A stretch of 64,000 nt of DNA from Croceivirga radicis (GTDB taxonomy: Bacteria; Bacteroidota; Bacteroidia; Flavobacteriales; Flavobacteriaceae). The position numbers and the translations under genes were made by a program. How positions within the stretch are numbered: the first letter of the stretch is position 1; each line of letters opens with the position of its first letter. The notes under the pieces were generated by a model. That model saw nothing but the letters and a program-made list of their open reading frames with translations, was not told the DNA's origin and searched no databases. The DNA lies in NCBI RefSeq assembly GCF_002072105.2, contig NZ_MTBC01000001.1:1-64000 (forward strand). Reading direction: 5' to 3'. Positions 37,091 through 51,606 of this stretch are shown piece after piece.

Positions 37091-37504
37091 TTAGTGTGGT
37101 AACTTAGATTTTATCAACCCGTAGAACAATGTACCTAAGGTTGCAGCGGCCAAAACAACCAAAATGGGCAAGTAACCCGCACCCACCAGAACATACATTG
37201 GGCCCGGACATGCACCCGCTAGCGCCCAACCCAATCCAAAGCAGACACCTCCTATAGCGTATCGGTAAAACGATTTGTCTTTATCCGCAATAACTATTTT
37301 TTCTCCAAAGAAAGACTTTAGTCCTTTTCTTTTGGTTATTTGGGTAAATAGGATACCCAAAGCCAAGGCCGAACCTATGATACCATACATATGAAAAGAA
37401 TCGAATTGAAACATTTCATAAATACGAAACCAACTAGCTGCCTCTGACTTAAATAGCACTATACCAAAGAAAGTTCCTATCAATAAATACAATATACTTT
37501 TCAT
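37091..37504 (-). CDS. YeeE/YedE family sulfur transporter, half-size subunit
   Basis: A 137-residue membrane protein with four hydrophobic segments and the family string 'FGLGWALAGACPGPMYVLVGAG', which carries the conserved Cys. YeeE/YedE proteins import thiosulfate or related sulfur compounds. Three bases after its partner at 37508, so the two half-proteins probably pair to make the usual full-length transporter. Confidence 0.85.
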   Translation of the reverse strand: MKSILYLLIGTFFGIVLFKSEAASWFRIYEMFQFDSFHMYGIIGSALALGILFTQITKRKGLKSFFGEKIVIADKDKSFYRYAIGGVCFGLGWALAGACPGPMYVLVGAGYLPILVVLAAATLGTLFYGLIKSKLPH

Positions 37505-37507
37505 AGC

Positions 37508-38065
37508 TTAGAATAAAATTGGAAAGATTAGGTGTGTCATAATTAAACCTCCAACAAAAAAACCTATCACGGCAATTAAGGATGGTAGTTGCAAATTACT
37601 TAGACCAGAAATAGCGTGACCAGAAGTACAACCACCGGCATAACGTGCACCAAAGCCTACTAGAAATCCACCCAGGATTAGCAATACTAAATTCTTAGGG
37701 TTGGAAAAAACCTTATTTTCAAATAAGGCTTGTGGCATATAGGCTTGCCCGCCATCTTTAAAACCTAATGTATTTAACTTAGTAATTGTATTTTCAGAAA
37801 TGGCAACAGCGTCATTAGGCGATAAAAAGTTTTGTGCAATAAAACCACCGATAAGTACTCCCAAGGCAACTAACAAATTCCAACGTTGTGCTTTCCAATC
37901 AAACTTAAAAAAACCAGCCAATTTGCCAGCACCACCAATTGCACACAGGGTTCTTAAATTGGAAGACATTCCAAAGCGTTTTCCCATTAAGATAAGTATT
38001 GCCATGGTTAACGCAATTAACGGCCCAGAAATATACCAAGGCCATGGTTCTAATATCAAATTCAT
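37508..38065 (-). CDS. YeeE/YedE family sulfur transporter, half-size subunit
   Basis: A 185-residue membrane protein with about five segments and the family string 'GFGARYAGGCTSGHAISGLSNLQ' including the conserved Cys. Upstream partner of 37091. A Crp/Fnr-type site precedes it (38110-38123). Imports thiosulfate or polysulfide-type sulfur by family analogy. Confidence 0.87.
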   Translation of the reverse strand: MNLILEPWPWYISGPLIALTMAILILMGKRFGMSSNLRTLCAIGGAGKLAGFFKFDWKAQRWNLLVALGVLIGGFIAQNFLSPNDAVAISENTITKLNTLGFKDGGQAYMPQALFENKVFSNPKNLVLLILGGFLVGFGARYAGGCTSGHAISGLSNLQLPSLIAVIGFFVGGLIMTHLIFPILF

Positions 38066-38079
38066 AAATCTATTTTGTG

Positions 38080-38123
38080 CAAAGAAATTAATAGTTGTTG
38101 GGTTTGAAAGTAACTTAGGTAAC
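38080..38123 (-). promoter_or_regulatory. Crp/Fnr-type site and -7 box before yeeE pair (imperfect)
   Basis: GTAAC-TTAG-GTAAC (38110-38123); the right half differs from GTTAC by one base. A -7-like box TTTCTTTG (38080-38087 on the minus strand) begins 29.5 nt from the site centre. Predicted leader about 10 nt to the start at 38065. See the regulon finding. Confidence 0.55.
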
Positions 38124-38130
38124 CAAAGTA

Positions 38131-39168
38131 CTAATAGCTTGTATCATCTAACTTTACTTTTCCATTGAAGGTACGGTATAAAAAGATGAAATAAAAAGCC
38201 AGCAAAGGCGCACCTATTAAAACAATGGTTAACATAATACCCAGTGATTTTTGTGAAGAAGCTGCGTTATAAATCGTAACACTAAAATCAGGATTTACGG
38301 TAGAAGGCAGCAATACTGGATACAATTGAAAAGCTACCAGCATCAGTAGAAAGGCCATAGTCAAGGATGAAAACAATAAGGCTTGCATATACTTTTTCTT
38401 GGACACCAATCTAGGCACATTGGCCACTGCCAGAAAAGCTAAGACTGGTAAAATAAAAAATATAGGATATTGCTTAAATTTATCAGTAACGCCAGGTAAG
38501 TATTGGAGTGTATAGGCAGAAGTAAATACAAAGGCCAATATAAAGAAAAGCATGGCTCTTTTTAATAAGAACGTGAGTCTATCAAATAATTTTCCTTCGG
38601 TCTTGAGCAACAAAAAAATTGCGCCTTGTGTCATAAAAACAGAAACCGTAGTTAACCCAACTAAAATAGCATACGGATTTAAGAAAGTAAAAAAAGGTCC
38701 GCCTTTGTACTCATAGTTTTTATGCAGTTCAAAACCCTGTAAAACATTACCTAGAACTACGCCAAGTAAAAAAGCAATTATGACGTTGGAAATAAAATAA
38801 ATTACATCCCAAGTCTTACGCCACCAAACCATTTCTTCCGCGCTTCTAAACTTAATAGCAGCCGAACGCAATACCAAAAACATAAGAAAAAGCATAAAGG
38901 GCACATACATTGCAGACAACATAGTTGCGTACATTACAGGGAAGCCTGCGAACAACGCCCCTGCACCTATTATGAGCCATACTTGATTGGCATCCCAAAG
39001 TGGGCCTATTGCATTAATTGCAATGCGCCTACTTAAATCTTTCTTAAAAAATAAATGCCAAGCTCCTGCTCCATAATCGAACCCTTCTAAAATAGCGTAG
39101 CCAGAAAATAGCAACCCCACAACCAAATACCATAAAGTAGGATAATCTATACCTAAAAATGTTTCCAT
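38131..39168 (-). CDS. cydB: Cytochrome bd oxidase subunit II
   Basis: A 345-residue membrane protein with nine-odd hydrophobic segments: 'LDYPTLWYLVVGLLF'-type start ('LGIDYPTLWYLVVG'), 'LEGFDYGAGAWHLFF', 'IGPLWDANQVWLIIGAGALFAGFP'. Pairs with CydA to make the quinol:O2 oxidoreductase. 10 bases after cydA. Cytochrome bd is relatively insensitive to sulfide, relevant to the sulfur genes around it. Confidence 0.95.
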   Translation of the reverse strand: METFLGIDYPTLWYLVVGLLFSGYAILEGFDYGAGAWHLFFKKDLSRRIAINAIGPLWDANQVWLIIGAGALFAGFPVMYATMLSAMYVPFMLFLMFLVLRSAAIKFRSAEEMVWWRKTWDVIYFISNVIIAFLLGVVLGNVLQGFELHKNYEYKGGPFFTFLNPYAILVGLTTVSVFMTQGAIFLLLKTEGKLFDRLTFLLKRAMLFFILAFVFTSAYTLQYLPGVTDKFKQYPIFFILPVLAFLAVANVPRLVSKKKYMQALLFSSLTMAFLLMLVAFQLYPVLLPSTVNPDFSVTIYNAASSQKSLGIMLTIVLIGAPLLAFYFIFLYRTFNGKVKLDDTSY

Positions 39169-39178
39169 GCCGTTTCTG

Positions 39179-40534
39179 TTATGTATACTTTAAAAATTCG
39201 TTCGGGTTATCCGCTTCATCATACGGGCCGTGTTTTATCTTTTTATTTACCGAATAAAGGAATAATAAGAACAAAATAGAATACACTACTAGAAATAATA
39301 TCAAGGAAAATAGAATTTGATTAGAAGAGACTTCTTGCGAAAAAGCATCGCTCGTTTTTAAATGACCATAGACTACCCAAGGCTGCCTACCCATTTCTGC
39401 AGCAAACCACCCTACTTGGTTAGCAATCTGTGGTAATAATGCCGATAAAACAAAAATCCTTAACAACCATTTCTTTTTAAACAAGGTACCTCGCCACCAC
39501 AAATAACACGCATAGAGGGTTAAACCTATCAAAAACATACCAATAGCAATCATGATATGATAAAACTGAAACACAGCATTTACCTGTGTGGGTACTTCAT
39601 TTTTAGGAAACGCGTTTAAACCGCTAATTGGTGCTTCAAAATCTTGATGTACCAAAAAAGAAAGTCCACCAGGAATACCTATTCCCGTCACCTCTTGCGA
39701 TTCATTATCAACCCATCCTAATAAATATAAATCTGCTGCAGAAGAGGCATTATAATGGCCTTCCATTGCAGCTAATTTAGCTGGCTGGTTTTTTGCTACA
39801 CCATCGGCCGAGCTATGCCCTGAAAACAATTGCGACAGCGAGACCAATGTAGCAACCGCCAATGCCATTTTAAATGCCTTTTTAGAAATCTCTACATACT
39901 TACCCTTTAACAAGTAATACGCATGCACACTCAGTACTAAAAACGCACCCGCCAAAAATGCTCCTTGCCATACATGTATTATTCTATCTACACTAGAAGG
40001 GTTAAAAACCATGGCCCAAAAGTCCGTAACCTCTGCCCTGGCATTTAAGCCTTCACCAACAATGTGGTAACCAGCCGGAGTTTGTTGCCAACTATTGGCT
40101 ACCACTATCCAGACAGCAGAAAACATAGAACCTAAAAAAACACCAATAGTAGAAATGAAATGAACCTTAGGGGAAACCCTATTCCACCCAAACAACAAAA
40201 TCCCTAAAAAGGTACTTTCCAAGCCAAAAGCAAATAAACCTTCTGCTGCCAAGGCGCTACCAAAAATATCCCCAACGTATCTAGAATACACGGACCAGTT
40301 GGTTCCAAACTCAAATTCCATGATAATGCCCGTTGCCACCCCAATCCCAAAGGTTATTGCAAAAATTTTTAACCAAAAGCGGGTTAATATTTCATAAGCC
40401 TTTTTACCTGTTTTTAAATAAAGTCCTTCAAAAACAACCATTAAAAGTCCTAAACCAATACTTAAGGGAGGGTATATGTAGTGAAAAGCAATAGTAAAAG
40501 CAAACTGGATTCTAGCAAGTAATTCCGTATCCAT
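39179..40534 (-). CDS. cydA: Cytochrome bd oxidase subunit I
   Basis: A 451-residue membrane protein with the haem ligands in 'ARIQFAFTIAFHYIYPPLSIGLG' (His19 region) and 'GIIMEFEFGTNWSVYSRYVGDIFGS', and a short Q loop before 'FYHIMIAIGMFLIGL'. Oxidises quinol and reduces O2 to water. Leader of about 17 nt from a -7-like box; an imperfect Crp/Fnr site lies at 40587. Confidence 0.96.
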   Translation of the reverse strand: MDTELLARIQFAFTIAFHYIYPPLSIGLGLLMVVFEGLYLKTGKKAYEILTRFWLKIFAITFGIGVATGIIMEFEFGTNWSVYSRYVGDIFGSALAAEGLFAFGLESTFLGILLFGWNRVSPKVHFISTIGVFLGSMFSAVWIVVANSWQQTPAGYHIVGEGLNARAEVTDFWAMVFNPSSVDRIIHVWQGAFLAGAFLVLSVHAYYLLKGKYVEISKKAFKMALAVATLVSLSQLFSGHSSADGVAKNQPAKLAAMEGHYNASSAADLYLLGWVDNESQEVTGIGIPGGLSFLVHQDFEAPISGLNAFPKNEVPTQVNAVFQFYHIMIAIGMFLIGLTLYACYLWWRGTLFKKKWLLRIFVLSALLPQIANQVGWFAAEMGRQPWVVYGHLKTSDAFSQEVSSNQILFSLILFLVVYSILFLLFLYSVNKKIKHGPYDEADNPNEFLKYT

Positions 40535-40555
40535 AAGGCCGTAAAATTTCTACTA

Positions 40556-40600
40556 TAAAAATACGGCACAATGGTTAGATAAACGAGTAATTTAAGTTAC
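40556..40600 (-). promoter_or_regulatory. Crp/Fnr-type site and -7 box before cydAB
   Basis: GTAAT-TTAA-GTTAC (40587-40600), one mismatch from GTAAC-N4-GTTAC, and box TATTTTTA (40556-40563, minus strand) 30.5 nt from the site centre. Predicted leader about 17 nt to cydA. Confidence 0.55.
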
Positions 40601-40812
40601 AAAACCCGTAAAAAGTATGCTCTTAATTTTACCCTATTGTTTTCTGGGTGCACCCAATCATAGAGAGCAATTACCAGTGCCAATACAACCAAAATAAAAA
40701 TGGAAGGTGTTATACCAATACGCTTATGCGCAAACAAGGGATATGTTCTTGAACAAAATAGTAGAACCGAAAATTAACCCTATTCCAAACCACAGAAAAT
40801 AGCAAACAGCAG
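40597..40812 (-). pseudogene. Possible remnant of a small membrane protein gene
   Basis: On the minus strand two adjoining open pieces in different frames both look like membrane protein: 'YFLWFGIGLIFGSTILFKN' (ending in TAA at 40724-40726) and 'HKRIGITPSIFILVVLALVI' then 'ALYDWVHPENN' (stop at 40597-40599). A one-base shift joins them, but no start codon is available. This fits a frameshifted, decayed gene between the DUF2892 gene and cydA. The cydA Crp/Fnr site overlaps its end. Confidence 0.3.
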
Positions 40813-40816
40813 TAAA

Positions 40817-40849
40817 GAAAAAAGGCTACTTCCAGTAAGAAGCAGCCTT
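40817..40849 (-). terminator. Rho-independent terminator after the DUF2892 gene
   Basis: On the minus strand AAGGCTgCTTC / GAAGtAGCCTT (stem of ten pairs with one mismatch, 40822-40832 and 40839-40849), then a T run at 40817-40821. It begins 21 bases after the stop at 40870. Confidence 0.8.
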
Positions 40850-40869
40850 AAATCAATCAATCAATAAAT

Positions 40870-41076
40870 TTATTCTTTCAGTTTGCAAGTATTAAACCCA
40901 AAAGGAGTGTATACAGGACAAAAACCTGTTATGCTCGTAAATAAAAAAACGGCACTCAAAATCAAAAGCACATACGCAAAAACACCACCTACAATGTTAA
41001 AATGAAATAATAGTGCCACCACAATAGCAACTACAATTCTAAAAACTCTATCCACAACACCCATATTCTTTTTCAT
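40870..41076 (-). CDS. DUF2892 (YgaP-like) small membrane protein
   Basis: A 68-residue protein with two transmembrane segments: 'GVVDRVFRIVVAIVVALLFHF' and 'YVLLILSAVFLFTSITGFCPVY', ending 'TPFGFNTCKLKE'. Family DUF2892 is found beside or fused to rhodaneses (as in YgaP), so a role in sulfur handling fits. Divergent from the sulfite oxidase gene with which it shares a perfect Crp/Fnr palindrome. Confidence 0.87.
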   Translation of the reverse strand: MKKNMGVVDRVFRIVVAIVVALLFHFNIVGGVFAYVLLILSAVFLFTSITGFCPVYTPFGFNTCKLKE

Positions 41077-41119
41077 ATCCTTAATTTTAGTTACTAACAG
41101 CTTTTAAAGAGAGCCATCA

Positions 41120-41193
41120 TAAAATTACGTAAAGTGTAGCGGTAACGGTGTAACCTTGGTTACACAAAAGATTACTTTTTAAGGATACTTTTA
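41120..41193. promoter_or_regulatory. Perfect Crp/Fnr palindrome shared by two divergent promoters
   Basis: TGTAAC-CTTG-GTTACA (41149-41164), a perfect 6-4-6 inverted repeat. To the right, TACTTTTA (41186-41193) starts 29.5 nt from the centre and would start transcription about 13 nt before ATG 41211. To the left, minus-strand TAATTTTA (41120-41127) also starts 29.5 nt from the centre and serves the DUF2892 gene. One site thus fits both directions. Confidence 0.8.
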
Positions 41194-41210
41194 AAATTCC
41201 ATCATAGCTA

Positions 41211-42431
41211 ATGAAAAGAAGGTTTTTCGCAAAGAATATAGGCTTGGCTACCATGAGTAGCATTTTGGGGGCTAAAATTGTCCAAGGTAATTTTATGCCT
41301 GAAGGATATACACCTCTTGGATTACAAGACCAAGACCCCTTTAGCCTTTTTGATAAGAACAAAGAAATGGTGGTATTAAATGATAAGCCATGGAATATTG
41401 AAGCTAAGGCCCATTTGTTGGATGATGCGATTACTCCTAATAAAAATATGTTTATTAGAAATAACGGAAAACTACCCGTAAACATAGACGCAGACTCATG
41501 GAAAATTACCTTTAACGGGGAGTCGGTTGTACAAGAAAAATCATTTAGCCTAAACGATTTAAAAAAACAGTTTAAACAGTACACCTACCAACTTACTTTA
41601 GAATGTGGCGGAAACGGACGGGCGGAATTTAATCCACCAGCTAAGGGAAATCAGTGGACCGTAGGCGCCGTACATTGTGCAAAATGGACAGGGGTTCGCC
41701 TTAAAGATGTATTACAGGCTGTTGGAATAAAAGATGATGCCGTTTATATTGGTTACCACGCCGCAGATGTACATTTAAGCGGTAACCCAGAGAAAGAGCC
41801 CATTTCTAGAGGTGTACCCATAGCAAAAGCCCTACAAGACGAAACCTTATTGGCTTTTAAAATGAATGGTGAGGACATACCTTTAGCGCACGGTTTTCCG
41901 TTACGTTTGGTTTGTGGTGGTTGGCCAGCATCTACCTCTGGTAAATGGCTTACAGAAATTAGTGTCCGTAACATTGTACATGATGGAGCAAAAATGACGG
42001 GTACCGCCTACCGCGTTCCCTGCAAACCAGTAGCGCCTGGTGCAAAGGTAAAAGATGAAGATATGTGCATTATAGAATCTATGCCAGTAAAGTCTTTAAT
42101 TACCTATCCAAAAACAGGTGCTATGCTTAAGAAAGAACAATCATTGACCATTCGCGGTCATGCTTGGGCAGGTGAACTAGAAGTAGCTAAAATGGAATAT
42201 TCTATAGATTTTGGAGCAACTTGGAAACTATGTAAGCTTAATAAACCCTCCAATAGATTAGCGTGGCAACATTTTTCTGCGATGGTAGATTTTCCCGAAA
42301 CAGGTTACTATGAGGTTTGGGCAAAAGCCACGGATACCAATGGTGTAAGTCAACCCATGTTATTACCAGGCTGGAACCCCAAAGGCTATTTAAATAACGC
42401 TTGCCATAGAATTGCCGTAAAAATAGGATAA
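41211..42431 (+). CDS. Sulfite-oxidase-like molybdopterin oxidoreductase
   Basis: A 406-residue molybdoenzyme. N-terminal twin-arginine-type signal ('MKRRFFAKNIGLATMSSIL'). Moco-binding region with cysteine ligand in 'LTLECGGNGRAEF' (about residue 129), 'CAKWTGVRLKDVL', 'HGFPLRLVCGGWPASTSGKWL', and a C-terminal dimerisation domain ('IRGHAWAGELEVAKMEYSIDFGATWK'). Sulfite oxidase/SorA-type enzymes oxidise sulfite to sulfate and pass electrons to cytochrome c. The next gene, overlapping by one base (TAATG), encodes that cytochrome. Confidence 0.88.
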   Translation: MKRRFFAKNIGLATMSSILGAKIVQGNFMPEGYTPLGLQDQDPFSLFDKNKEMVVLNDKPWNIEAKAHLLDDAITPNKNMFIRNNGKLPVNIDADSWKITFNGESVVQEKSFSLNDLKKQFKQYTYQLTLECGGNGRAEFNPPAKGNQWTVGAVHCAKWTGVRLKDVLQAVGIKDDAVYIGYHAADVHLSGNPEKEPISRGVPIAKALQDETLLAFKMNGEDIPLAHGFPLRLVCGGWPASTSGKWLTEISVRNIVHDGAKMTGTAYRVPCKPVAPGAKVKDEDMCIIESMPVKSLITYPKTGAMLKKEQSLTIRGHAWAGELEVAKMEYSIDFGATWKLCKLNKPSNRLAWQHFSAMVDFPETGYYEVWAKATDTNGVSQPMLLPGWNPKGYLNNACHRIAVKIG

Positions 42432-42913
42432 TGGAGCAGCCCAATAAATTTAAAGAAAGTGCGGCATTAATTCGCAAGTTAAGCGTAACCCTATTTGTTT
42501 TCTTTATTGCTATTGCTGGAATTCTAGTTTACTTGATGGTTGACCCCAGTTTATCTGCATTTTCTTCTAAACCAGAGACTACGCTTACCGTATTAGAAAC
42601 CAACGAAATTAAGGATGATTTTGATGCCATTGAAGATGGTATACATTTACGTACTGGATTTATTGCAGACGATGGGTTAATGACGGTGGTAAATAACTGT
42701 ACCAATTGCCACTCCGCTAAATTGGTAACGCAAAATAGAATGACCAAAGAAGGTTGGTCAGCTACTATAAAATGGATGCAAGAAACCCAAAACCTATGGG
42801 ATTTAGGGGACAATGAAGTTATAATTTTAAATTATCTGGCAAAAAATTACGCGCCAGAACAGAAAGGTAGAAGAGAAAACTTGACCAATATAGAGTGGTA
42901 CACCTTAAATTGA
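42431..42913 (+). CDS. Membrane-anchored c-type cytochrome, partner of the molybdoenzyme
   Basis: A 160-residue protein: N-terminal transmembrane anchor ('LFVFFIAIAGILVYLMV'), then 'VVNNCTNCHSAKLVTQNRM', one CxxCH haem c site, and 'WDLGDNEVIILNYLAKNYAPE', a helix typical of the distal haem region. Likely accepts electrons from the sulfite-oxidising subunit. One base overlap with 41211 (TAATG). Confidence 0.82.
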   Translation: MEQPNKFKESAALIRKLSVTLFVFFIAIAGILVYLMVDPSLSAFSSKPETTLTVLETNEIKDDFDAIEDGIHLRTGFIADDGLMTVVNNCTNCHSAKLVTQNRMTKEGWSATIKWMQETQNLWDLGDNEVIILNYLAKNYAPEQKGRRENLTNIEWYTLN

Positions 42914-42918
42914 TGTAA

Positions 42919-43791
42919 GTGGAATACGTAGATGCGTTTTTAAACGCTATTAGTGGCACCTTTGATTATACTTTAAAAGCAATACTGTTTAAAGTACCAT
43001 GGTATAAAAACTATTTTTGGGGCTTGGTGGTTATATCCATTGTAGTATGGATGTTAGAGATACTATTTCCATGGCGAAAAGACCAAAAAATAATACGTAA
43101 AGACTTTTGGTTAGACGCTTTTTACATGTTCTTCAATTTTTTCATTTTTGCTCTAGTTGTTAGTGGTTTTTATAAGGTTATAGAACTTGCTTTTGCCAAA
43201 GGGGGACTTACAATAGAAAGTCTAGCGGTAATAGATACTAGGAGCTGGCCCGTTTGGTCCCAATTGTTGGTGTTTTTTATTCTGCTCGATTTTGTACAGT
43301 GGTTTACCCATGTTTGCCTGCATAAATTTCCAATTTTCTGGAATTTTCATCAGGTACATCACAGCGTTAAAGAAATGGGGTTCGCTGCGCATTTACGATA
43401 CCATTGGATGGAAAACATTCTTTATAAGCCATTAAAAACATTTGGCGTAATGCTTTTGGGCGGCTTTGAGCCAGAACAAGCCTACATTGTTCATTTTATT
43501 GCCATTACCATTGGCCATCTAAATCACGCCAACATCAAATTGAGCTATGGCCCCTTAAAATATATATTTAATAATCCCGTAATGCATTTGTACCACCATG
43601 CCTATACCCTACCAAAAGGTAGTTTTGGGGTCAACTTTGGGATTAGTCTAAGTTTATGGGACTATATTTTTAAAACCAATTACCTACCAGAAGATAGTGG
43701 TAATGTGCCATTAGGCTACCCTGGAGACGAAAAAATGCCCCAAAACTTTTTGGGGCAATTAACTCATGGGTTTAAAAAACAGAAATCTTAA
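42919..43791 (+). CDS. Sterol desaturase / fatty-acid hydroxylase family protein
   Basis: A 290-residue integral membrane di-iron protein. Histidine boxes: '[11 protein letters not shown]', 'NFHQVHHS', and '[19 protein letters not shown]'. Several hydrophobic segments precede them. It starts at GTG 42919, 5 bases after the cytochrome stop, and ends 4 bases into the end of trxA. Family members hydroxylate or desaturate lipids; why one lies in the sulfite oxidase operon is unexplained. Confidence 0.85.
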
Positions 43792-44081
43792 TTGGCCTGT
43801 ATTAGCCTAACTAAATCTTGAGATTGTACCACCCCAGATTGTCTCCATAGCATTTCGCCATTTTTAAACAACATTAAGGTAGGCACCCCTTTAACTTGGT
43901 AACGAGCCGCCAAAGCCTGATTTTTATCTACATCTATTTTTACAATCTTAGCTTGTTCCCCAACTTGGTCTTTTACCTGCTTGAGTATAGGTCCCATGGT
44001 TTTACATGGCCCACACCATTCTGCAAAAAAATCGACCAAAACAGGTTTTTCACTTGCTACTATTTCATTGAAACTTGCCAT
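43788..44081 (-). CDS. trxA: Thioredoxin
   Basis: A 97-residue thioredoxin: active site '[16 protein letters not shown]' with the WCGPC motif, '[25 protein letters not shown]' with the cis-Pro. No signal peptide, so cytosolic. Third gene of the operon PDO-rhodanese-trxA, six bases after the rhodanese; may return reduced thiols to the sulfur-transfer reactions upstream. Confidence 0.93.
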
Positions 44082-44087
44082 ACGTGT

Positions 44088-44462
44088 TTATTTTATCCAA
44101 TCGTTATAACCACCTGTATAGTCGTAAATTTTAGTAAAACCTTGCTTTTTTAATAGTTGCGCCGCCTTATTGCTTCTACCCCCCATTTTACAATATAGGT
44201 ATACCGGCTCTTCTTTATCTAAACCTTGAATTTGTTGAACAAAATCTGGACTGCCTACATTTATGTTTTTGGCATCATCTATATGTCCGACGCCATACTC
44301 TTGTGGCGTACGCACATCAATGAGTTGTACTTCCTTACCAATGGCATGGGTTTTTAAGAATGCCTTATCAACTTTAGTAACTACAACGTCATTGTTATCT
44401 TGGCAGGCACCTAGTTGTATAAAAGACAAAGCTGCACATAAGACTTTAAGGATATTCTTCAT
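44088..44462 (-). CDS. Rhodanese-like lipoprotein
   Basis: A 124-residue protein with signal II peptide ('MKNILKVLCAALSFIQLGAC', lipid Cys20) and one rhodanese domain with active-site Cys in 'YLYCKMGGRSNKAAQLL'. Placed outside the cytoplasmic membrane; would transfer sulfane sulfur. Five bases after the dioxygenase gene. Confidence 0.87.
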   Translation of the reverse strand: MKNILKVLCAALSFIQLGACQDNNDVVVTKVDKAFLKTHAIGKEVQLIDVRTPQEYGVGHIDDAKNINVGSPDFVQQIQGLDKEEPVYLYCKMGGRSNKAAQLLKKQGFTKIYDYTGGYNDWIK

Positions 44463-44466
44463 ACGT

Positions 44467-45879
44467 CTATTTTATAGTTGTTGGGCAAACATAATCAGAC
44501 ACAGGAATTCCTGCCTCTTTAATAGCCTTAAATCCGCCAGCAACATCAATTAAATTGTGAATTCCTCTACTTTTTAGAATACTTGCGGCAATCATACTTC
44601 TATAACCACCGGCACAATACACATAAAATGTTTGCTCAGAAGGGAATTCTGCCAGGTGATTATTTAAGAAATCTAAGGGTGTTGCATGGGCATTTGGGAT
44701 GTGTTCAGAAATATATTCTCCTGGTTTTCTAACGTCAAATACCGGTACATCTTCGGCCTCCATGGCCTCTTTTAGTGCGGTTGCAGGCACGGTACTTACC
44801 GTATCATATTCCATAGAGGCCTTTTTCCAGGCTTCAAAACCGCCTTTTAGATAACCTAAGGTATTATCAAAACCAACACGTGAAAGCCTTGTAACCACTT
44901 CTTCTTCCCTACCTTCTTCTACCACTAATAAAATAGGCTGTTGTACATCGCCAATCAAAGCACCCACCCAAGGCGCAAAACCGCCATCTATTCCTATAAA
45001 AATGGAGCGTGGTATGTGCCCCTTGGCAAATTCGTTTTGATGTCTAACATCTAAGACAATAGCACCGGTTTCGTTGGCCGCAGCCTCAAATGCGGTTGGT
45101 GATAACGCCTGGGTACCTCTTTCCAAAACCTCATCAATATCATCATAGCCTTCCTTGTTCATCTTAACGTTTAATGGAAAGTATTGTGGAGGAGGCAACA
45201 AACCTTCTGTAACTTCTTTTACAAATTCTTCCTTGGTCATATCTGCCCGCAGGGCATAATTCATCTTCTTTTGGTTCCCTAGCGTGTCTACCGTTTCCTT
45301 CATCATATTTTTACCACAAGCAGAACCGGCACCATGCGCAGGGTATACCACTACATCATCTGCCAAAGGCATTATTTTGGTACGCAAACTATCAAACAAA
45401 GTAGCTGCCAATTGTTCTTGGGTCATATCCGCAGCTTTTTGAGCCAAATCTGGCCTACCTACATCCCCTAAAAACAAAGTATCTCCACTAAAAATAGCAT
45501 GGTCTTTTCCATTTTCGTCTTTTAGTAAATAGGTGGTACTTTCCATGGTATGTCCAGGTGTGTGCAAGGCTACAATGGTTACCTTGCCCAATTTAAACTC
45601 CTGATTGTCTTTTGCTATTATGGCATCAAACGTAGGATTGGCGTTTGGCCCATACACAATTGGAGCTCCCGTTTCTTTAGACAAGGTAACATGTCCGCTC
45701 ACAAAATCTGCATGAAAATGGGTCTCAAAAATATACTTGATTTCTGCATTGGCCTTAGCCGCTCTATCCAAATATGGTTTTACCTCTCTAAGGGGATCAA
45801 TTATAGCCACTTCGCCATCACTTTCAATGTAATATGCCCCTTGGGCCAAGCATCCGGTATATATTTGTTCTATTTTCAT
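44467..45879 (-). CDS. Persulfide dioxygenase-rhodanese fusion (MBL fold)
   Basis: A 470-residue protein. The N-terminal metallo-beta-lactamase domain (about 1-240) has the iron site of ETHE1-type persulfide dioxygenases ('ETHFHADFVSGHVTLS', 'AIFSGDTLFLGDVGRPD', 'YPAHGAGSACG'), which oxidise GSSH to sulfite. Two rhodanese domains follow: the first (about 260-355) has lost its Cys (in 'ILLVVEEGREEEVV'), the second (about 370-460) keeps it in 'FYVYCAGGYRSMIAAS'. First gene of the operon with rhodanese and trxA, behind a Crp/Fnr palindrome. Confidence 0.9.
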   Translation of the reverse strand: MKIEQIYTGCLAQGAYYIESDGEVAIIDPLREVKPYLDRAAKANAEIKYIFETHFHADFVSGHVTLSKETGAPIVYGPNANPTFDAIIAKDNQEFKLGKVTIVALHTPGHTMESTTYLLKDENGKDHAIFSGDTLFLGDVGRPDLAQKAADMTQEQLAATLFDSLRTKIMPLADDVVVYPAHGAGSACGKNMMKETVDTLGNQKKMNYALRADMTKEEFVKEVTEGLLPPPQYFPLNVKMNKEGYDDIDEVLERGTQALSPTAFEAAANETGAIVLDVRHQNEFAKGHIPRSIFIGIDGGFAPWVGALIGDVQQPILLVVEEGREEEVVTRLSRVGFDNTLGYLKGGFEAWKKASMEYDTVSTVPATALKEAMEAEDVPVFDVRKPGEYISEHIPNAHATPLDFLNNHLAEFPSEQTFYVYCAGGYRSMIAASILKSRGIHNLIDVAGGFKAIKEAGIPVSDYVCPTTIK

Positions 45880-45899
45880 TGTAATTGTATTTAATACTC

Positions 45900-45943
45900 C
45901 AAAATTAAGTCTAAGTTTTTTCTTACGCAGTAACTTCTGTTAC
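45900..45943 (-). promoter_or_regulatory. Crp/Fnr palindrome and -7 box before the persulfide dioxygenase operon
   Basis: GTAAC-TTCT-GTTAC (45930-45943), perfect 5-4-5. A full TAnnTTTG box, TAATTTTG (45900-45907 on the minus strand), starts 29.5 nt from the site centre. Predicted transcription start about 45895, leader about 16 nt. Confidence 0.8.
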
Positions 45944-45947
45944 ACAA

Positions 45948-47666
45948 TTATTTATACTGCATAGACACCTTGTTCTGCATGGGCGATTTGCCCACATGTG
46001 CCAAACAATCTTCATAGGCTTCTGCCGTACGTACGTGGATATGGTCTGGCCCAATAACTTTGACCAAGCCACTTTTTACCAGAATATCACGTATGGGGCC
46101 TATGGCACCTGCAAGTTTAAAGGTGATTCCTTTTTCTTTTAGGTCGATGACTATTTTTTCTAATTCTGCGGCAGCAGTATTGTCTATATAATTCACTGGC
46201 TCCGCATTAAGAATAACATAACTCAGCGTTCCTTTTTTAAGGTGGATTTGTTTGTATAAGGCTGTTTTAAAATGTTGCACATTGGCAAAGAACAGCTGTG
46301 CATCAAAACGAAGAATCAGAATGCCGTTATCGCATTCCACATCTTCAGAAAAGCGCTCTACATTCTTAAAATAGTCCATCCCTTTTATTTTACCCAACAC
46401 GGCTACGTGTGGTTTAGAGGTACGATATATTAATAGAAACAAGGAAAACAACACCCCAAAAATGATACCTTGGGCAATACCAACAAAAAGCGTAGTTACA
46501 AAGGTGACAATCAACAATATCAATTCGTCTTTTTGATGTTTGTACAGCTGCGCCGGATATTTTAAATCTAGTAAACCAAAAACAGCCACTAAAATAATGG
46601 CTCCAAGAATAGACTTAGGTAAATATTGAAAGTATGGCGTTAAAAACAACAACACCAAGCCTACTACCAAAGCACTGATAATAGATGCCAGTCCTGTTTT
46701 TGCACCTTCATTTACATTTACGGCGGTACGAGACATACTTGCGTTAGCAGAAAAAGATTGAAATAGTGCCCCAATAATATTACTTACCCCCAATGCTTTT
46801 AATTCTTGGTCTGGCACGGTATGGTACTCTTGGGTACGTTCTTCTACACCTTTGGCAATTGCCATTTCTTCTGCAAAAGCAATAAATGCCAAAGCCATGG
46901 CTAACGGAAATGCAAGTGTTAATTGTTCCCACGTAAAATTGGGCAAAGTAAAAGCGGGTAAACCATTAGGCACATAGCCCACAATGTTTACATCTGCCTC
47001 ATTTACCATAAAAAGATAAATACCCACAATACCCAATACCACTACTATCATGGCAGAAGGCAATTTTCTATTCCATTTTTTTAACCCTACAATAACGAGC
47101 ATGGCCGCAACACCAATGGTAAAATCATACCAATTTAGCGTATGTAAATTGGTAAACAACTGCTGTATGGTCTCTACTGTATTAGACGAAGAAACCTTTA
47201 CCCCAAATAAGTGTTTTAACTGGCTTACCCCTATAACTATAGCTGCCGCAGAAGTAAAACCACTCACTACAGGCCTGGACAAAAAATTGGCTAAAAATCC
47301 TAGTTTTAAGAAGCCCATTGCCAATTGCAACACACCCACAAATAAGGCTATGAACAAGGCCATGGCTATATATTCTCCTTCTGTTGCCAATTTCATGGCA
47401 GATAAGCCAGAAGCCACAATTAGGGCATCCAAAGCTACAGGCCCAACGGCCAATTTTCTACTGGTACCTGTAAGCGCATATACCAAATTTGGAACTAGTG
47501 CGGTATACAACCCGTAGACCGGCGGCAAACCAACTATCATAGCATAGGCCATACCCTGCGGAATTAGCATTACACCAACGGTTAAGCCCGCTACTAGGTC
47601 TCCAGATAAATAAGACTTTTTGTAGTTGGGCAACCAATCTAGAATAGGAAAGTATTTTTTAAGCAT
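45948..47666 (-). CDS. SulP family inorganic anion transporter
   Basis: A 572-residue transporter with about 12 transmembrane segments ('VGLPPVYGLYTALVPNLVYALTGTS', 'SRPVVSGFTSAAAIVIGVSQLKHLFG') and a C-terminal STAS domain (about residues 430-550). SulP proteins move sulfate or bicarbonate. Eight bases after the Crp/Fnr gene, so likely co-transcribed. Given the neighbours, sulfate export or uptake is the best guess; bicarbonate remains possible. Confidence 0.87.
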   Translation of the reverse strand: MLKKYFPILDWLPNYKKSYLSGDLVAGLTVGVMLIPQGMAYAMIVGLPPVYGLYTALVPNLVYALTGTSRKLAVGPVALDALIVASGLSAMKLATEGEYIAMALFIALFVGVLQLAMGFLKLGFLANFLSRPVVSGFTSAAAIVIGVSQLKHLFGVKVSSSNTVETIQQLFTNLHTLNWYDFTIGVAAMLVIVGLKKWNRKLPSAMIVVVLGIVGIYLFMVNEADVNIVGYVPNGLPAFTLPNFTWEQLTLAFPLAMALAFIAFAEEMAIAKGVEERTQEYHTVPDQELKALGVSNIIGALFQSFSANASMSRTAVNVNEGAKTGLASIISALVVGLVLLFLTPYFQYLPKSILGAIILVAVFGLLDLKYPAQLYKHQKDELILLIVTFVTTLFVGIAQGIIFGVLFSLFLLIYRTSKPHVAVLGKIKGMDYFKNVERFSEDVECDNGILILRFDAQLFFANVQHFKTALYKQIHLKKGTLSYVILNAEPVNYIDNTAAAELEKIVIDLKEKGITFKLAGAIGPIRDILVKSGLVKVIGPDHIHVRTAEAYEDCLAHVGKSPMQNKVSMQYK

Positions 47667-47674
47667 CTACTAAT

Positions 47675-48307
47675 CTATAAGTTGATGATTTCTATATGGC
47701 TTCTACTAAGTTTAATTTTACCCATGTTCTCCAACTTTTTTAGTAAGCGAGATATCACGACACGAGAGCTATGCAAATCATACGCAATTTCTTGATGGGT
47801 GTTGGTGATAATTGTACTGTTGTTTACCTCAGACTTTCGTACCAAAAAATCAATTAGCCGCTCATCCATATTCATAAAAGCGATACTATCTACTGTATGT
47901 AGCAACTCATTTAAGCGAGAATGGTAACTCTCGAACACAAAATTTCGCCATGTTTTGTACTTAGCGGTCCATTCTTCCATTTTGTGAATTGGAACCATAA
48001 TAAGCTTGGCATCCGTCTCTGCAATAGCCCTAATGTTACTTTTTGCATCGCCTAGACAACATGCCATTGTCATGCTACAGGTATCTCCTTGCTCCAAATA
48101 ATAAAGTAACAATTCATCACCTTCATCATCCTCTCTAAGTATTTTAATTACACCTTCTAAGAGCAGCGGCATATATTTTATGTACTGCCCAATATCCATC
48201 AATTGAAAACCGGCAGGCACTTCTTTAAAAGTCCCCACTTGGGCAATATCGTTTAACAAAGCTTGCTCAAACGTATTTCCAAAACTGGTATGTAATTCTT
48301 GTATCAC
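47675..48307 (-). CDS. Crp/Fnr family transcriptional regulator
   Basis: A 210-residue regulator: cyclic-nucleotide-binding-like domain (about 20-130), dimer helix, C-terminal winged HTH ('NTHQEIAYDLHSSRVVISRLLKKLENMGKI', about 165-195). A Cys cluster, C77, C83 and C84 ('GDTCSMTMACCLGD'), sits at the effector region, and no Arg/Ser cAMP-binding motif is obvious. The start codon appears to be GTG 48307. It is first in an operon with the SulP gene and has a matching palindrome upstream, suggesting autoregulation. Confidence 0.9.
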   Translation of the reverse strand: MIQELHTSFGNTFEQALLNDIAQVGTFKEVPAGFQLMDIGQYIKYMPLLLEGVIKILREDDEGDELLLYYLEQGDTCSMTMACCLGDAKSNIRAIAETDAKLIMVPIHKMEEWTAKYKTWRNFVFESYHSRLNELLHTVDSIAFMNMDERLIDFLVRKSEVNNSTIITNTHQEIAYDLHSSRVVISRLLKKLENMGKIKLSRSHIEIINL

Positions 48308-48311
48308 AGTA

Positions 48312-48355
48312 CGAATTTACACATTAACAATAGCAACTTTAGTAACTCTTGTTAC
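48312..48355 (-). promoter_or_regulatory. Crp/Fnr palindrome and -7 box before the regulator gene
   Basis: GTAAC-TCTT-GTTAC (48342-48355), perfect 5-4-5, overlapping the end of the xanthine-oxidase-type gene. Minus-strand box TAAATTCG (48312-48319, 7 of 8 to TAnnTTTG) again starts 29.5 nt from the centre. It would place the transcription start at or next to GTG 48307, so the mRNA may be leaderless, or the true start is slightly different. Confidence 0.7.
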
Positions 48356-50502
48356 ATCTTGTTCAAGGTCTTTTGTAATGGCATATGATTTAGCCGTTTT
48401 CCCGTTAAACGATACACTGCATTGGCAATAGCGGCACCTATAGGCCCTAAAGGTGGTTCCCCCACTGGCCCAGGAACTTCACGACCTTGTAAAAGGGTTA
48501 CGTTTATTTCCTTTGGTGCGTGTTTCATTAAAGCCATTTGGTAAGGTCCGTAAATAGTGGGCTGTAATTGCCCATCCACTACGGTCATCTCTTCAAAAAG
48601 CGAAGCACTAATGCCCATAATTATGGCTCCTTCGCATTGCGCTTTTACTTGGTCTGGATTCACTGCGAACCCTGGGTCTAAAACACAGGTTACTTTGTGT
48701 ATTTTTATTTGCTGTTTTTCTATAGAAAGTGCTACCACTTGGGCACAAGGGGTACCTGCATCCGTAGAGGCGGCAAAACCCATGGCCTTACCATCGATCA
48801 CCTTGTCCGTATAGCCCGCCTTTTCCGCGGCTGTTTCTATCACCTTTCGTAATCGTGCACCTGCGTCATCGTCCTTAATGTGTTCCAAACGAAAATCGAC
48901 CGGGTTTTTCCCCGCCTTTTCTGCCAAGATATCCATAAAACTTTCCCAAGCAAAGGTATTGGCCAATAAGCCTAAACTACGCCACCAACTGGTAGCAAAT
49001 GGGAGTTCTACATGCCAAGAGGTAGTTCTAATGTTGGGAATAGCAAAATATTGACAAAATCCGCCACGTATGGCCCCCACATCTGCGCCCAACATTTTGT
49101 TTAAAAATCCGGGTAATAAGGCTGAATCTATGGCTACATCTCCACTAGAGAAATCGTGCTGAATGCTTTCTATTTTGCCATTAGCCGTAAGTTTTGCTTT
49201 AAGTTGATGATGTGTAGGCGGCCTAAACATATCATGCTGAAACTCTTCTTTACGACTAAAAAAATATTTTACGGGTTTGCCAACCAATTTGGACATTACT
49301 GCCGCTTGCACTGCATGTGGCGTGTGTAACCGTCTACCAAAACCGCCTCCTAAAAAAGTGGGAATTATATTCACTTTATCAGTATCTAAATCCAATCGTT
49401 TTGCTACCTCCTTTTGGGTAATAGCTACTACCTGAGTAGATAAAAATAAAGTAGCACCATCATCGGTTACATGTGCTACCACGCCGTTAGGTTCTATCTG
49501 GGCATGTGCAGCTATTGGCGTGGTAAACTCCGCCTCTACAGCTACTTCTTCTAAGGCATCTCCCTTTTTCTGAATTAGCGTAGGATTGCCATTGCCCACT
49601 TTCATCTTGGCCTCAATATCCTTTAACTGCAACTGTGTAGGGGCATCCCAAGTTACCTTAATTGCCTGTTTTGCATTTTCGGCTTCCAAATACGAGTTGG
49701 CTACCACGCCCACAAAATCATCTTCCTGAATAATCTTAAGCACGCCTGGCATTGACGCTGCTTGGCTAACATCTGCACTTATAAATGTTGCCCCTATGTA
49801 TTCTGGCCTTACCACCGTACCATACACCATGTCTGGCATGCTCGCATCCATACCAAAAATGGGTACTCCAAATACCTTATCCTCTAAATCTACCCTAGGT
49901 AAGGGTTTGCCAATTAGTTTATAATCCGATAGCTTTTTAAGTTCTGGGGTATCTACTTCTGGCCATTGGTTTACCTGTTTTGCCAAAGCCGCAAAAGTAA
50001 GTTCCTTCTTGCCAGCACTCACCTTCGTTTCTTCCATTACAACATCAGCAACAGCTACCTCCCACAGCTCTGCAGCAGCGGTTTTAATCATTTCTCGCAT
50101 GGTTGCGGCAAGTTCCCGTAAGGGTTGCCATAAACTTGCAATAGAAGTACTACCTCCTGTAGCAAAACTATCCATATTACCAGTGATGGAAGGTGCGTGA
50201 ACCACCTCTATACTAGATAAGGGCAATTCTAACTCATCTGCTGCCAATTGTGCCATACCCGTAAAGGTTCCTTGACCCATTTCTACCTTTGGAGAATATA
50301 GGCGAATTCTATTTTCTTCAGTCAGTTCAAACCACAAAACGGGTTCCATACCGCTACCTAAATAAGGAGAATCGGCGGAATTTGCATAAGCTAAAACCTG
50401 CCTACGAATAGGGTTGCGAAACAAGTACGTACCAACCGCTACAATGCCAGCCGTACCTAATGCTCCTCTTACCAAAAACTTTCTTCTAGATACCTTTGCC
50501 AT
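48352..50502 (-). CDS. Xanthine-oxidase-type molybdopterin subunit (isoquinoline oxidoreductase-like)
   Basis: A 716-residue molybdenum-hydroxylase large subunit. Twin-arginine signal 'VSRRKFLVRGALG' directs export. Strings: 'PYLGSGMEPVLWFELTEENR', 'PKVEMGQGTFTGMAQL', 'FLGGGFGRRLHTPHAVQAAV', 'GEPPLGPIGAAIANAVY' with the Moco-binding glutamate in 'VGEPP'. Resembles IorB. ATG 50502 is one base after the stop of the 2Fe-2S subunit. Substrate unknown. The end overlaps the Crp/Fnr site. Confidence 0.88.
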   Translation of the reverse strand: MAKVSRRKFLVRGALGTAGIVAVGTYLFRNPIRRQVLAYANSADSPYLGSGMEPVLWFELTEENRIRLYSPKVEMGQGTFTGMAQLAADELELPLSSIEVVHAPSITGNMDSFATGGSTSIASLWQPLRELAATMREMIKTAAAELWEVAVADVVMEETKVSAGKKELTFAALAKQVNQWPEVDTPELKKLSDYKLIGKPLPRVDLEDKVFGVPIFGMDASMPDMVYGTVVRPEYIGATFISADVSQAASMPGVLKIIQEDDFVGVVANSYLEAENAKQAIKVTWDAPTQLQLKDIEAKMKVGNGNPTLIQKKGDALEEVAVEAEFTTPIAAHAQIEPNGVVAHVTDDGATLFLSTQVVAITQKEVAKRLDLDTDKVNIIPTFLGGGFGRRLHTPHAVQAAVMSKLVGKPVKYFFSRKEEFQHDMFRPPTHHQLKAKLTANGKIESIQHDFSSGDVAIDSALLPGFLNKMLGADVGAIRGGFCQYFAIPNIRTTSWHVELPFATSWWRSLGLLANTFAWESFMDILAEKAGKNPVDFRLEHIKDDDAGARLRKVIETAAEKAGYTDKVIDGKAMGFAASTDAGTPCAQVVALSIEKQQIKIHKVTCVLDPGFAVNPDQVKAQCEGAIIMGISASLFEEMTVVDGQLQPTIYGPYQMALMKHAPKEINVTLLQGREVPGPVGEPPLGPIGAAIANAVYRLTGKRLNHMPLQKTLNKM

Positions 50503-50503
50503 A

Positions 50504-50995
50504 CTATTCCTTTTCTTGTTCAGTAATTGGTAATTCACTATTCAGTGCTGCAGCTCTATGTATTGCCTTACGCATGCGATAGTACGTACCGCAACGGCAT
50601 ACGTTAATAATATTGTTGTCAATATCTTCATCTGTTGGCTTAGGCACTTTTTTTAGAAGCGCAGCGGTAGCCATCATAAACCCAGGCTGGCAATAACCAC
50701 ATTGCGGCACTACTTCTTCTATCCACGCTTGCTGAACAGGATGTGGATTTTCTTTTGTTCCTAGACCTTCTATAGTAGTTATGGTTTTTCCTTCTGCAAA
50801 TTTTATAGGGTACGAACAAGAACGTACCGCTTGGTCATCCACCAAGAGCGTACAAGCCCCACAGGCAGCCTTTCCGCACCCAAACTTGGTACCTTTTTGG
50901 TCTAACACATCCCGAATTACCCATAATAGTGGGGTCATTTCGTCTTCTATTTGTACTAATTGCGGAGTGCCATTTACTATAAGTTGTATTTTCAT
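50504..50995 (-). CDS. 2Fe-2S subunit of the molybdenum hydroxylase
   Basis: A 163-residue iron-sulfur protein with both clusters: plant-ferredoxin-type 'CGKAACGACTLLVDDQAVRSC', then 'CGYCQPGFMM' and 'VCRCGTYYRM'. It transfers electrons from the Mo subunit. ATG 50995 ('MKIQLIVNGTPQLVQIED') starts the ferredoxin fold; the 14-residue longer form overlaps the next gene upstream. Located between the large subunit and the dihaem cytochrome. Confidence 0.92.
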   Translation of the reverse strand: MKIQLIVNGTPQLVQIEDEMTPLLWVIRDVLDQKGTKFGCGKAACGACTLLVDDQAVRSCSYPIKFAEGKTITTIEGLGTKENPHPVQQAWIEEVVPQCGYCQPGFMMATAALLKKVPKPTDEDIDNNIINVCRCGTYYRMRKAIHRAAALNSELPITEQEKE

Positions 50996-51000
50996 TTGTT

Positions 51001-51606
51001 TTATTTTGTGGGTATTACAGCTCCGTCTGCGAACCATTTTTCTACAACTGCGATATATTCTTCCTTAGATAAGGGTGGTTTTTCTCGTTCTACACCGTTG
51101 GCATCCACCCCAGGATTCCATGCCCATAAAACCAGTGCATCTTTGGTAAGGTGTTCTACGAGCGCTTCATGATTTTTACCGCCGTTCGTTTCGGTGTTTA
51201 ACAAGCGTTCCGCAATTTCTATTCTGGTTAATCCCTGCCACCCCATAGATGCTGGTGCTAGCCCCCAATGGGGTGCTCCTGGAACTCCTGAATAGGGATT
51301 ATTTTCTTTTTGGTGACAGGTATGGCATTGGGTAGCTTCAAAACCATGGTCATCCGCACCTCTGGCCATATCAAAATGATGCGGCTGCCGTTCCATGCCT
51401 TGTTTGGGCAGGTTGTCTGTCGGGTGGCAGTTCATACAACGGGGATGGGTTAACACATCCATCAGTTGATGAAAAGTAGTCTCGTTAGACACTTCTACTG
51501 GCTTATCTATTGTTTTATAATTGCTTACGTGGACGGATGTATTAAGACCGAAGAGCATTCCCGTGAGCAGAACTAGCAGGAATAGTAAGGGGAGCGATTT
51601 TTTCAT
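51001..51606 (-). CDS. Dihaem c-type cytochrome of the hydroxylase operon
   Basis: A 201-residue exported protein (signal 'MKKSLPLLFLLVLLTGMLFG') with two CxxCH sites: 'HPRCMNCHPTDNLP' and 'QCHTCHQKENNP'. Six bases before the 2Fe-2S gene, so probably the electron outlet of the molybdoenzyme. First gene of the operon. Confidence 0.82.
   Translation of the reverse strand: MKKSLPLLFLLVLLTGMLFGLNTSVHVSNYKTIDKPVEVSNETTFHQLMDVLTHPRCMNCHPTDNLPKQGMERQPHHFDMARGADDHGFEATQCHTCHQKENNPYSGVPGAPHWGLAPASMGWQGLTRIEIAERLLNTETNGGKNHEALVEHLTKDALVLWAWNPGVDANGVEREKPPLSKEEYIAVVEKWFADGAVIPTK

Follow-up and report, generated by a model that had tools for sequence, protein, structure and literature searches.

A 64,000-nucleotide stretch of the Croceivirga radicis genome (contig NZ_MTBC01000001.1, positions 1 to 64,000; hereafter, the window) carries a block of sulfur genes whose promoters share a palindromic operator, GTAAC-N4-GTTAC, and a fixed promoter geometry. 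We propose that a Crp/Fnr-family protein encoded in the same block binds this palindrome and acts as a class II activator of a regulon for the oxidation and export of reactive sulfur, a reading to which we assign a probability of about 0.8. Judging from their genomes, marine flavobacteria appear to switch on a common set of sulfur-oxidising and sulfur-exporting genes through one Crp/Fnr activator, one palindrome, and one fixed distance. A fuller version, which we hold tentatively and at somewhat less than even odds, adds that the ligand pocket has been turned into a sensor whose cysteines (Cys77 plus the Cys83-Cys84 pair) detect persulfide or polysulfide, and that throughout Flavobacteriaceae the protein governs sulfur oxidation, sulfur export, and sulfide-resistant respiration as their master regulator, replacing the -33 box of the unusual Bacteroidota promoter at a base-fixed spacing.

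A preliminary description of the window had placed five operators and six promoter boxes in this block, and re-reading the letters confirmed them (Table 1). Three operators are exact and two differ from the palindrome by one letter; one exact site is common to two divergent promoters, those of a YgaP-like transmembrane protein (YgaP-TM, DUF2892) and of a sulfite dehydrogenase. The accompanying -7-like boxes match 5 or 6 of the 6 specified letters of TAnnTTTG (counted earlier as 7 or 8 of 8), and they begin 29.5 nt from the site centre at the yeeE, DUF2892, sulfite dehydrogenase, persulfide dioxygenase (PDO), and crp promoters, and 30.5 nt from it at cydA. Palindromes with at most one mismatch number 7 in the window, against 1.8 expected by shuffling and a maximum of 5 in 100 shuffles; the two that are not among the five operators (24655 and 45209) lie inside open reading frames (ORFs). 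No operator at this level precedes the neighbouring molybdopterin-hydroxylase genes (48352-51606), in agreement with the earlier account, and the last one (48352-50538) has a stop codon that overlaps the crp operator.

Sites, geometry, conservation, targets, and co-occurrence with the regulator are computed results. We used two collections of loci, both selected for containing the regulator gene: set A, with 60 regulator neighbourhoods of 6.7 to 18.6 kb each (1.04 Mb), and set B, with 80 loci from named genomes, almost separate from set A. Set A holds 79 exact palindromes in 44 of its 60 loci, against a mean of 0.6 and a maximum of 3 in 20 first-order Markov simulations. GTAAC-N4-GTTAC ranks first among all 1024 N4 palindromes, arm spacings of 0-3 and 5-12 yield 0 or 1 occurrence each, and 74 of the 79 exact sites fall outside ORFs. 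When a gene start 30-160 nt away is required, 68 of the 79 sites provide 76 orientations; a box matching at least 5 of the 6 letters stands exactly at +29.5 in 57 of these (all six letters in 37), and no other offset tested gives more than 5. The right arm of the palindrome occupies the position expected for a -33 TTTG, no conserved -33 TTTG is present, and A is preferred at +41 from the site centre (frequency 0.60). Set B repeats this pattern: excluding 7 duplicates already counted, it contributes 200 new exact sites, with the box at exactly 29.5 in 183 and the next best offset at 12 of 200. Exact sites occur in 72 of the 80 loci and at least once in each of the 28 named genera from which the loci derive. 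Many sites in the relatives' loci lie directly behind crp, ahead of the next gene.

Both sets display a fixed site-to-box register with no separate -33 box, and it is because of these two features that we favour class II activation. The regulator would bind GTAAC-N4-GTTAC with the site centre about 41.5 nt ahead of the transcription start, and would bring Bacteroidota RNA polymerase to promoters with a -7 box but no -33 box; we infer the binding, the activation, and the start positions. The same protein could instead be a repressor that covers the -33 region and releases when sulfur is present; BigR, sHdrR, and SoxR, the best-studied bacterial persulfide sensors in the literature searched, are repressors. 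A repressor needs no fixed register, whereas the single 29.5 spacing in most promoters, without a conserved -33 TTTG, is the pattern of a class II activator, and we regard repression as very improbable.

Genome-wide searches extend the co-occurrence beyond the selected loci. Site plus box matches 145 times, in 53 of the 119 related genomes searched, against 5 times for a reversed control. Taking a match at E up to 1e-20 as a regulator homologue, the pattern is found in 53 of 88 genomes with a homologue and in 0 of 31 without (Fisher 2e-10, relatedness ignored). These 53 include G020, whose homologue is a distant Glu183 paralogue, and G084, whose orthologue carries Glu183. Together with sets A and B, these counts support the earlier proposal that the promoters share an operator and class II geometry and that the likely regulator is the Crp/Fnr protein encoded next to them.

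Within the 3.60-Mb genome of C. radicis itself, the exact palindrome occurs five times: three times in this locus, and once each inside a SusD-like and a glpK-like ORF (named from their translations). Allowing one mismatch yields 136 sites, fewer than the 205 of the reversed control, so a single one-mismatch site is no evidence. Site plus box at 0 or 1 mismatch finds four promoters, all in this locus. The yeeE site with its box has two mismatches, and matches at that level are more numerous for the control (32) than for the pattern (17); the 30.5 spacing puts the cydA site outside the reach of the site-plus-box pattern. Since own-genome counts at this mismatch level and spacing give no support, the yeeE and cydA sites rest on orthologues: exact sites are found at yeeE in locus L048 and at a cydA-like gene in L136, and the cydA site of L046 has one mismatch, its spacer altered and its arms unaltered. 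As a separate observation, a two-mismatch site with box at G000:C1:546386-546428 (L305) lies 57 nt before a 487-aa lipoprotein-like ORF, at a level where chance matches are expected.

Conservation upstream of orthologous genes and the rate of the motif at random promoters were checks named beforehand, and both favour the operator. Promoters were scored as carrying a site if it was exact, or had 1-2 mismatches together with the box; matches were excluded if their identity fell below 40%, if they began after residue 25, or if less than 150 nt lay upstream. In sets A and B, respectively, sites precede PDO in 30/35 and 58/62 promoters, yeeE1 in 15/24 and 19/27, sorA in 5/6 and 4/6, and sulP in 11/16 and 15/24; random ATGs have an exact site in 63/3987 and 119/3993 cases. 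Operon-internal genes have none: yeeE2 0/24 and 0/25 (0/49), and cytochrome c 0/5 and 0/6 (0/11). Upstream of the regulator gene, a site with no more than one mismatch stands in 4/60 and 15/80 cases; crp is not generally under the control of such a site.

To describe the targets, we grouped the genes behind 153 promoters with site plus box, drawn from the window, all 60 set A loci, and 60 further stretches; the latter were picked for carrying the pattern, which biases the counts, and 8 of the 153 sites have no called ORF. The promoters cluster on sulfur genes: PDO/rhodanese (41), TolC-type outer membrane protein (22), TauE/SafE (12), SQR-like (9), YgaP-TM (8), YeeE (7), cytochrome c/Tll0287 (6), sulfite dehydrogenase (4), SulP (4), crp (3), and CydA-like (3). 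The remainder are pairs and singles that include SoxB-like, SoxA-like, and NrfD-type proteins and molybdopterin oxidoreductases. With the exception of SulP, the NCBIfam names of the targets are mostly below curated cut-offs. Sites stand ahead of operon-leading genes, namely PDO, YeeE, TauE, SulP, SorA-like, SQR-like, cytochrome bd, and TolC-RND. The operator also heads TolC-HlyD(-RND) efflux operons (L136:1-3167 and L172:2577-4989), with HlyD and RND genes downstream in the example checked.

The predicted regulator belongs to the Crp/Fnr superfamily by PF00027 and PF13545 (both over cut-off) and by fold matches, its structural model having a mean predicted local distance difference test score of 87.9. 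Its recognition helix reads R182-V183-x3-R187, with R182 in 61/61, V183 in 60/61 (Ile in one), and R187 in 61/61 aligned sequences. The published specificity code pairs Arg180 with G3 and Glu181 with A6 (PMC1274295). Our alignment puts R182 and V183 at code positions 180 and 181, which fits GTAAC.

The same paper (Rodionov et al. 2005) gives the consensus of HcpR2, also a Crp/Fnr regulator, as GTAACnnnnGTTAC, identical to the present operator. Sulfate-reduction genes have been predicted among the targets of Desulfovibrio HcpR. The sites might then mark an HcpR2-type nitrosative-stress regulon that happens to include sulfur genes. HcpR2 carries Pro at position 181 where the regulator has Val (our residue 183, by our own alignment); the core HcpR target hcp (PF03063) is absent from the C. 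radicis genome and occurs in 3 of the 119 relatives, none of which belongs to the family; and the targets of GTAAC-N4-GTTAC are sulfur genes. We therefore give an HcpR2-type regulon little credence.

A different Crp/Fnr protein of the genome might bind the sites while the neighbouring regulator acts elsewhere. C. radicis has two other HTH_Crp_2 proteins, and some homologues with glutamate at position 183 (E183) coexist with GTAAC sites. Yet R-V-x3-R is confined to the regulator among the three HTH_Crp_2 proteins, and is absent from the seven other proteins read (the two HTH_Crp_2 and five further cNMP proteins, with two large cNMP proteins left out of the comparison). Sites gather round the regulator gene in the neighbourhoods counted above (44/60 and 72/80), though those loci were chosen for holding it, and valine and glutamate paralogues tend to go with different operators, albeit through a single event on the tree. 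Another binder seems highly unlikely to us, and the protein encoded beside the sites remains the preferred regulator.

The glutamate paralogues are of interest in themselves. In five cases (L196, L197, L200, L202, L215), E183 Crp/Fnr paralogues beside YgaP-TM genes accompany GTGAC-N4-GTCAC with the same box, which probably marks a sister regulon; GTGAC alone within 1.5 kb is found at 0/151 genes with V183, partial and identical matches being excluded. A seemingly strong Val/Glu operator code (Fisher 5e-7) was set aside: on a FastTree phylogeny from which the recognition helix had been removed, the operator switched once, and an independent-pairs test has 2 pairs, so we treat Val/Glu as a single concordant contrast to which L274, G084, and G020 are exceptions. 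TAnnTTTG also stands at +29.5 from another palindrome, ATGAT-N4-ATCAT (with ATGAC as a variant): counted by strand, this holds for 10 of 24 set A and 7 of 34 set B occurrences (L057, L060, L074, L226, L280-L282, and others). The genes downstream look by eye UspA-, CcoI-, HPF-, and sugar-kinase-like, and this may be an Fnr-type regulon of the same geometry.

The protein falls short of the CRP (cAMP) NCBIfam equivalog (47.4 against 266 bits). By hand alignment to CRP residues, Met79 and Lys89 may occupy the cAMP-contacting Glu/Arg positions of the phosphate-binding cassette. Its only cysteines are Cys77, 83, and 84, and the N-terminal cluster by which FNR-type proteins hold 4Fe-4S is absent. Cys77 is kept in 61/61 sequences, Cys83 in 56/61, and Cys84 in 55/61; by hand alignment they map to the phosphate-binding cassette of CRP, and would sit in a loop that replaces it. 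Our guess is that Cys77, together with Cys83-Cys84, senses a reactive sulfur species as the signal.

Several observations weigh against the proposed regulon or its sensor. Exact sites are lacking in 16/60 set A and 8/80 set B loci, and the box accompanies only 65/79 perfect palindromes in set A and 196/207 in set B. Flavobacterium-like loci without exact sites have asymmetric sites in the same place, for example GTAAC-N4-ATTAC or GTAAC-N4-ATCAC. L274 and G084 (L187) encode E183 regulators yet have exact GTAAC sites; G020 has one site with box but only a 36% E183 paralogue; and GTGAC-N4-GTCAC stands ahead of PDO in some V183 genomes (L329, L332, L095). The predicted transcription start of crp coincides with its GTG start codon (window 48307), at a 41-nt distance identical in the window, L047, and L048, which would mean a leaderless message or a later true start. 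One SQR-like query found no SQR-like gene in the C. radicis genome, a weak negative. Finally, Cys77 is present in 20/20 more distant homologues and is therefore not specific to the regulon; the Cys83-Cys84 pair, found in 1/20 of them, is the more specific trait.

Table 1. Predicted operators, promoter boxes, and genes of the C. radicis sulfur locus (window coordinates).
Feature	Position	Strand	Remarks
Operator, exact, crp-sulP promoter	48342..48355	.	
-7-like box TAAATTCG, crp-sulP promoter	48312..48319	-	1 mismatch to site-plus-box pattern
Operator, exact, PDO operon	45930..45943	.	
-7-like box TAATTTTG, PDO operon	45900..45907	-	
Operator, exact, two divergent promoters	41150..41163	.	
-7-like box TACTTTTA, sulfite dehydrogenase operon	41186..41193	+	
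-7-like box TAATTTTA, YgaP-TM/DUF2892 promoter	41120..41127	-	
Operator, one mismatch (GTAATTTAAGTTAC), cydAB	40587..40600	.	
-7-like box TATTTTTA, cydAB	40556..40563	-	spacing 30.5
Operator, one mismatch (GTAACTTAGGTAAC), yeeE pair	38110..38123	.	exact orthologous site in L048
-7-like box TTTCTTTG, yeeE pair	38080..38087	-	
Crp/Fnr-family regulator, 210 aa, GTG start	47675..48307	-	Pfam HTH_Crp_2 and cNMP_binding over cut-off
SulP-type sulfate permease with STAS domain	45948..47666	-	TIGR00815 over cut-off
PDO-like: metallo-beta-lactamase and two rhodanese stretches	44467..45879	-	
Rhodanese	44088..44462	-	
Thioredoxin	43788..44081	-	
SorA-like sulfite dehydrogenase (molybdopterin)	41211..42431	+	SorA E 6e-70, under curated cut-off
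Cytochrome c subunit, weakly SorB-like	42431..42913	+	28.5 bits against cut-off of 93
Fatty-acid-hydroxylase-type membrane protein	42919..43791	+	
YgaP-like transmembrane protein (DUF2892), 68 aa by reading	40870..41076	-	clusters with L048:1566-1862, PF11127
Cytochrome bd oxidase: cydA 39179-40534, cydB 38131-39168	38131..40534	-	cydB named from its position and a tblastn label
YeeE-type sulfur transporter pair (37508-38065, 37091-37504)	37091..38065	-	PF04143 Sulf_transp; weak TsuA match

The block had been described as one of sulfur respiration, a label that the analysis does not support: its genes look like sulfur oxidation and detoxification, that is, the oxidation and transport of persulfide, sulfite, and thiosulfate alongside cytochrome bd. 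PDO would convert persulfide to sulfite and SorA sulfite to sulfate; SulP, YeeE, and TauE would move sulfate and other sulfur species; and cytochrome bd would continue respiration under sulfide. Accordingly worded, the regulon would oxidise and export reactive sulfur through PDO, rhodanese, thioredoxin, sulfite dehydrogenase, SulP, and YeeE/TauE, with cytochrome bd as a presumably sulfide-resistant oxidase.

For a group of bacteria that is dominant among marine heterotrophs, these results put a name to the likely regulator of sulfur oxidation, to its operator, and to its targets, and they supply a very regular natural data set for Crp/Fnr activation of Bacteroidota-type promoters. They also provide candidate functions for the TolC-RND operon and the YgaP-TM protein, and make the signal directly testable. 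The preliminary description took both regulon and operator to be undescribed. For the operator this fails, the exact string being that of the HcpR2 paper, the only place where it appears in the literature searched (PMC1274295). For the regulon it appears to stand: no Crp/Fnr sulfur regulon in flavobacteria was found in that literature, which leaves out most subscription papers.

Known systems resemble the present one in part. The sulfide and persulfide regulators SqrR, BigR, and sHdrR/SoxR, together with CstR and FisR, likewise control PDO, SQR, and rhodanese genes, but mostly act as repressors and belong to other protein families: ArsR (PMC12423496), CsoR, and sigma-54. HcpR2 shares operator and family and differs in its specificity residue and in its hcp target, which C. 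radicis lacks. The best PDB match in both sequence and fold is 3dv8, a Crp/Fnr protein of Eubacterium rectale, which has Glu at the V183 position. The second-best PDB relative, the cyanobacterial nitrogen regulator NtcA, aligns with an R-V-x3-R recognition helix and has the consensus GTA-N8-TAC centred near -41.5 (PMC3898017), which is contained in the present operator. It differs in that the regulator scores 40.5 against the NtcA NCBIfam cut-off of 244.95 bits, targets sulfur genes, and has cysteines in its sensor loop. The regulator would be an activator of ordinary type whose role is apparently undescribed, and the promoter evidence for it is unusually clean.

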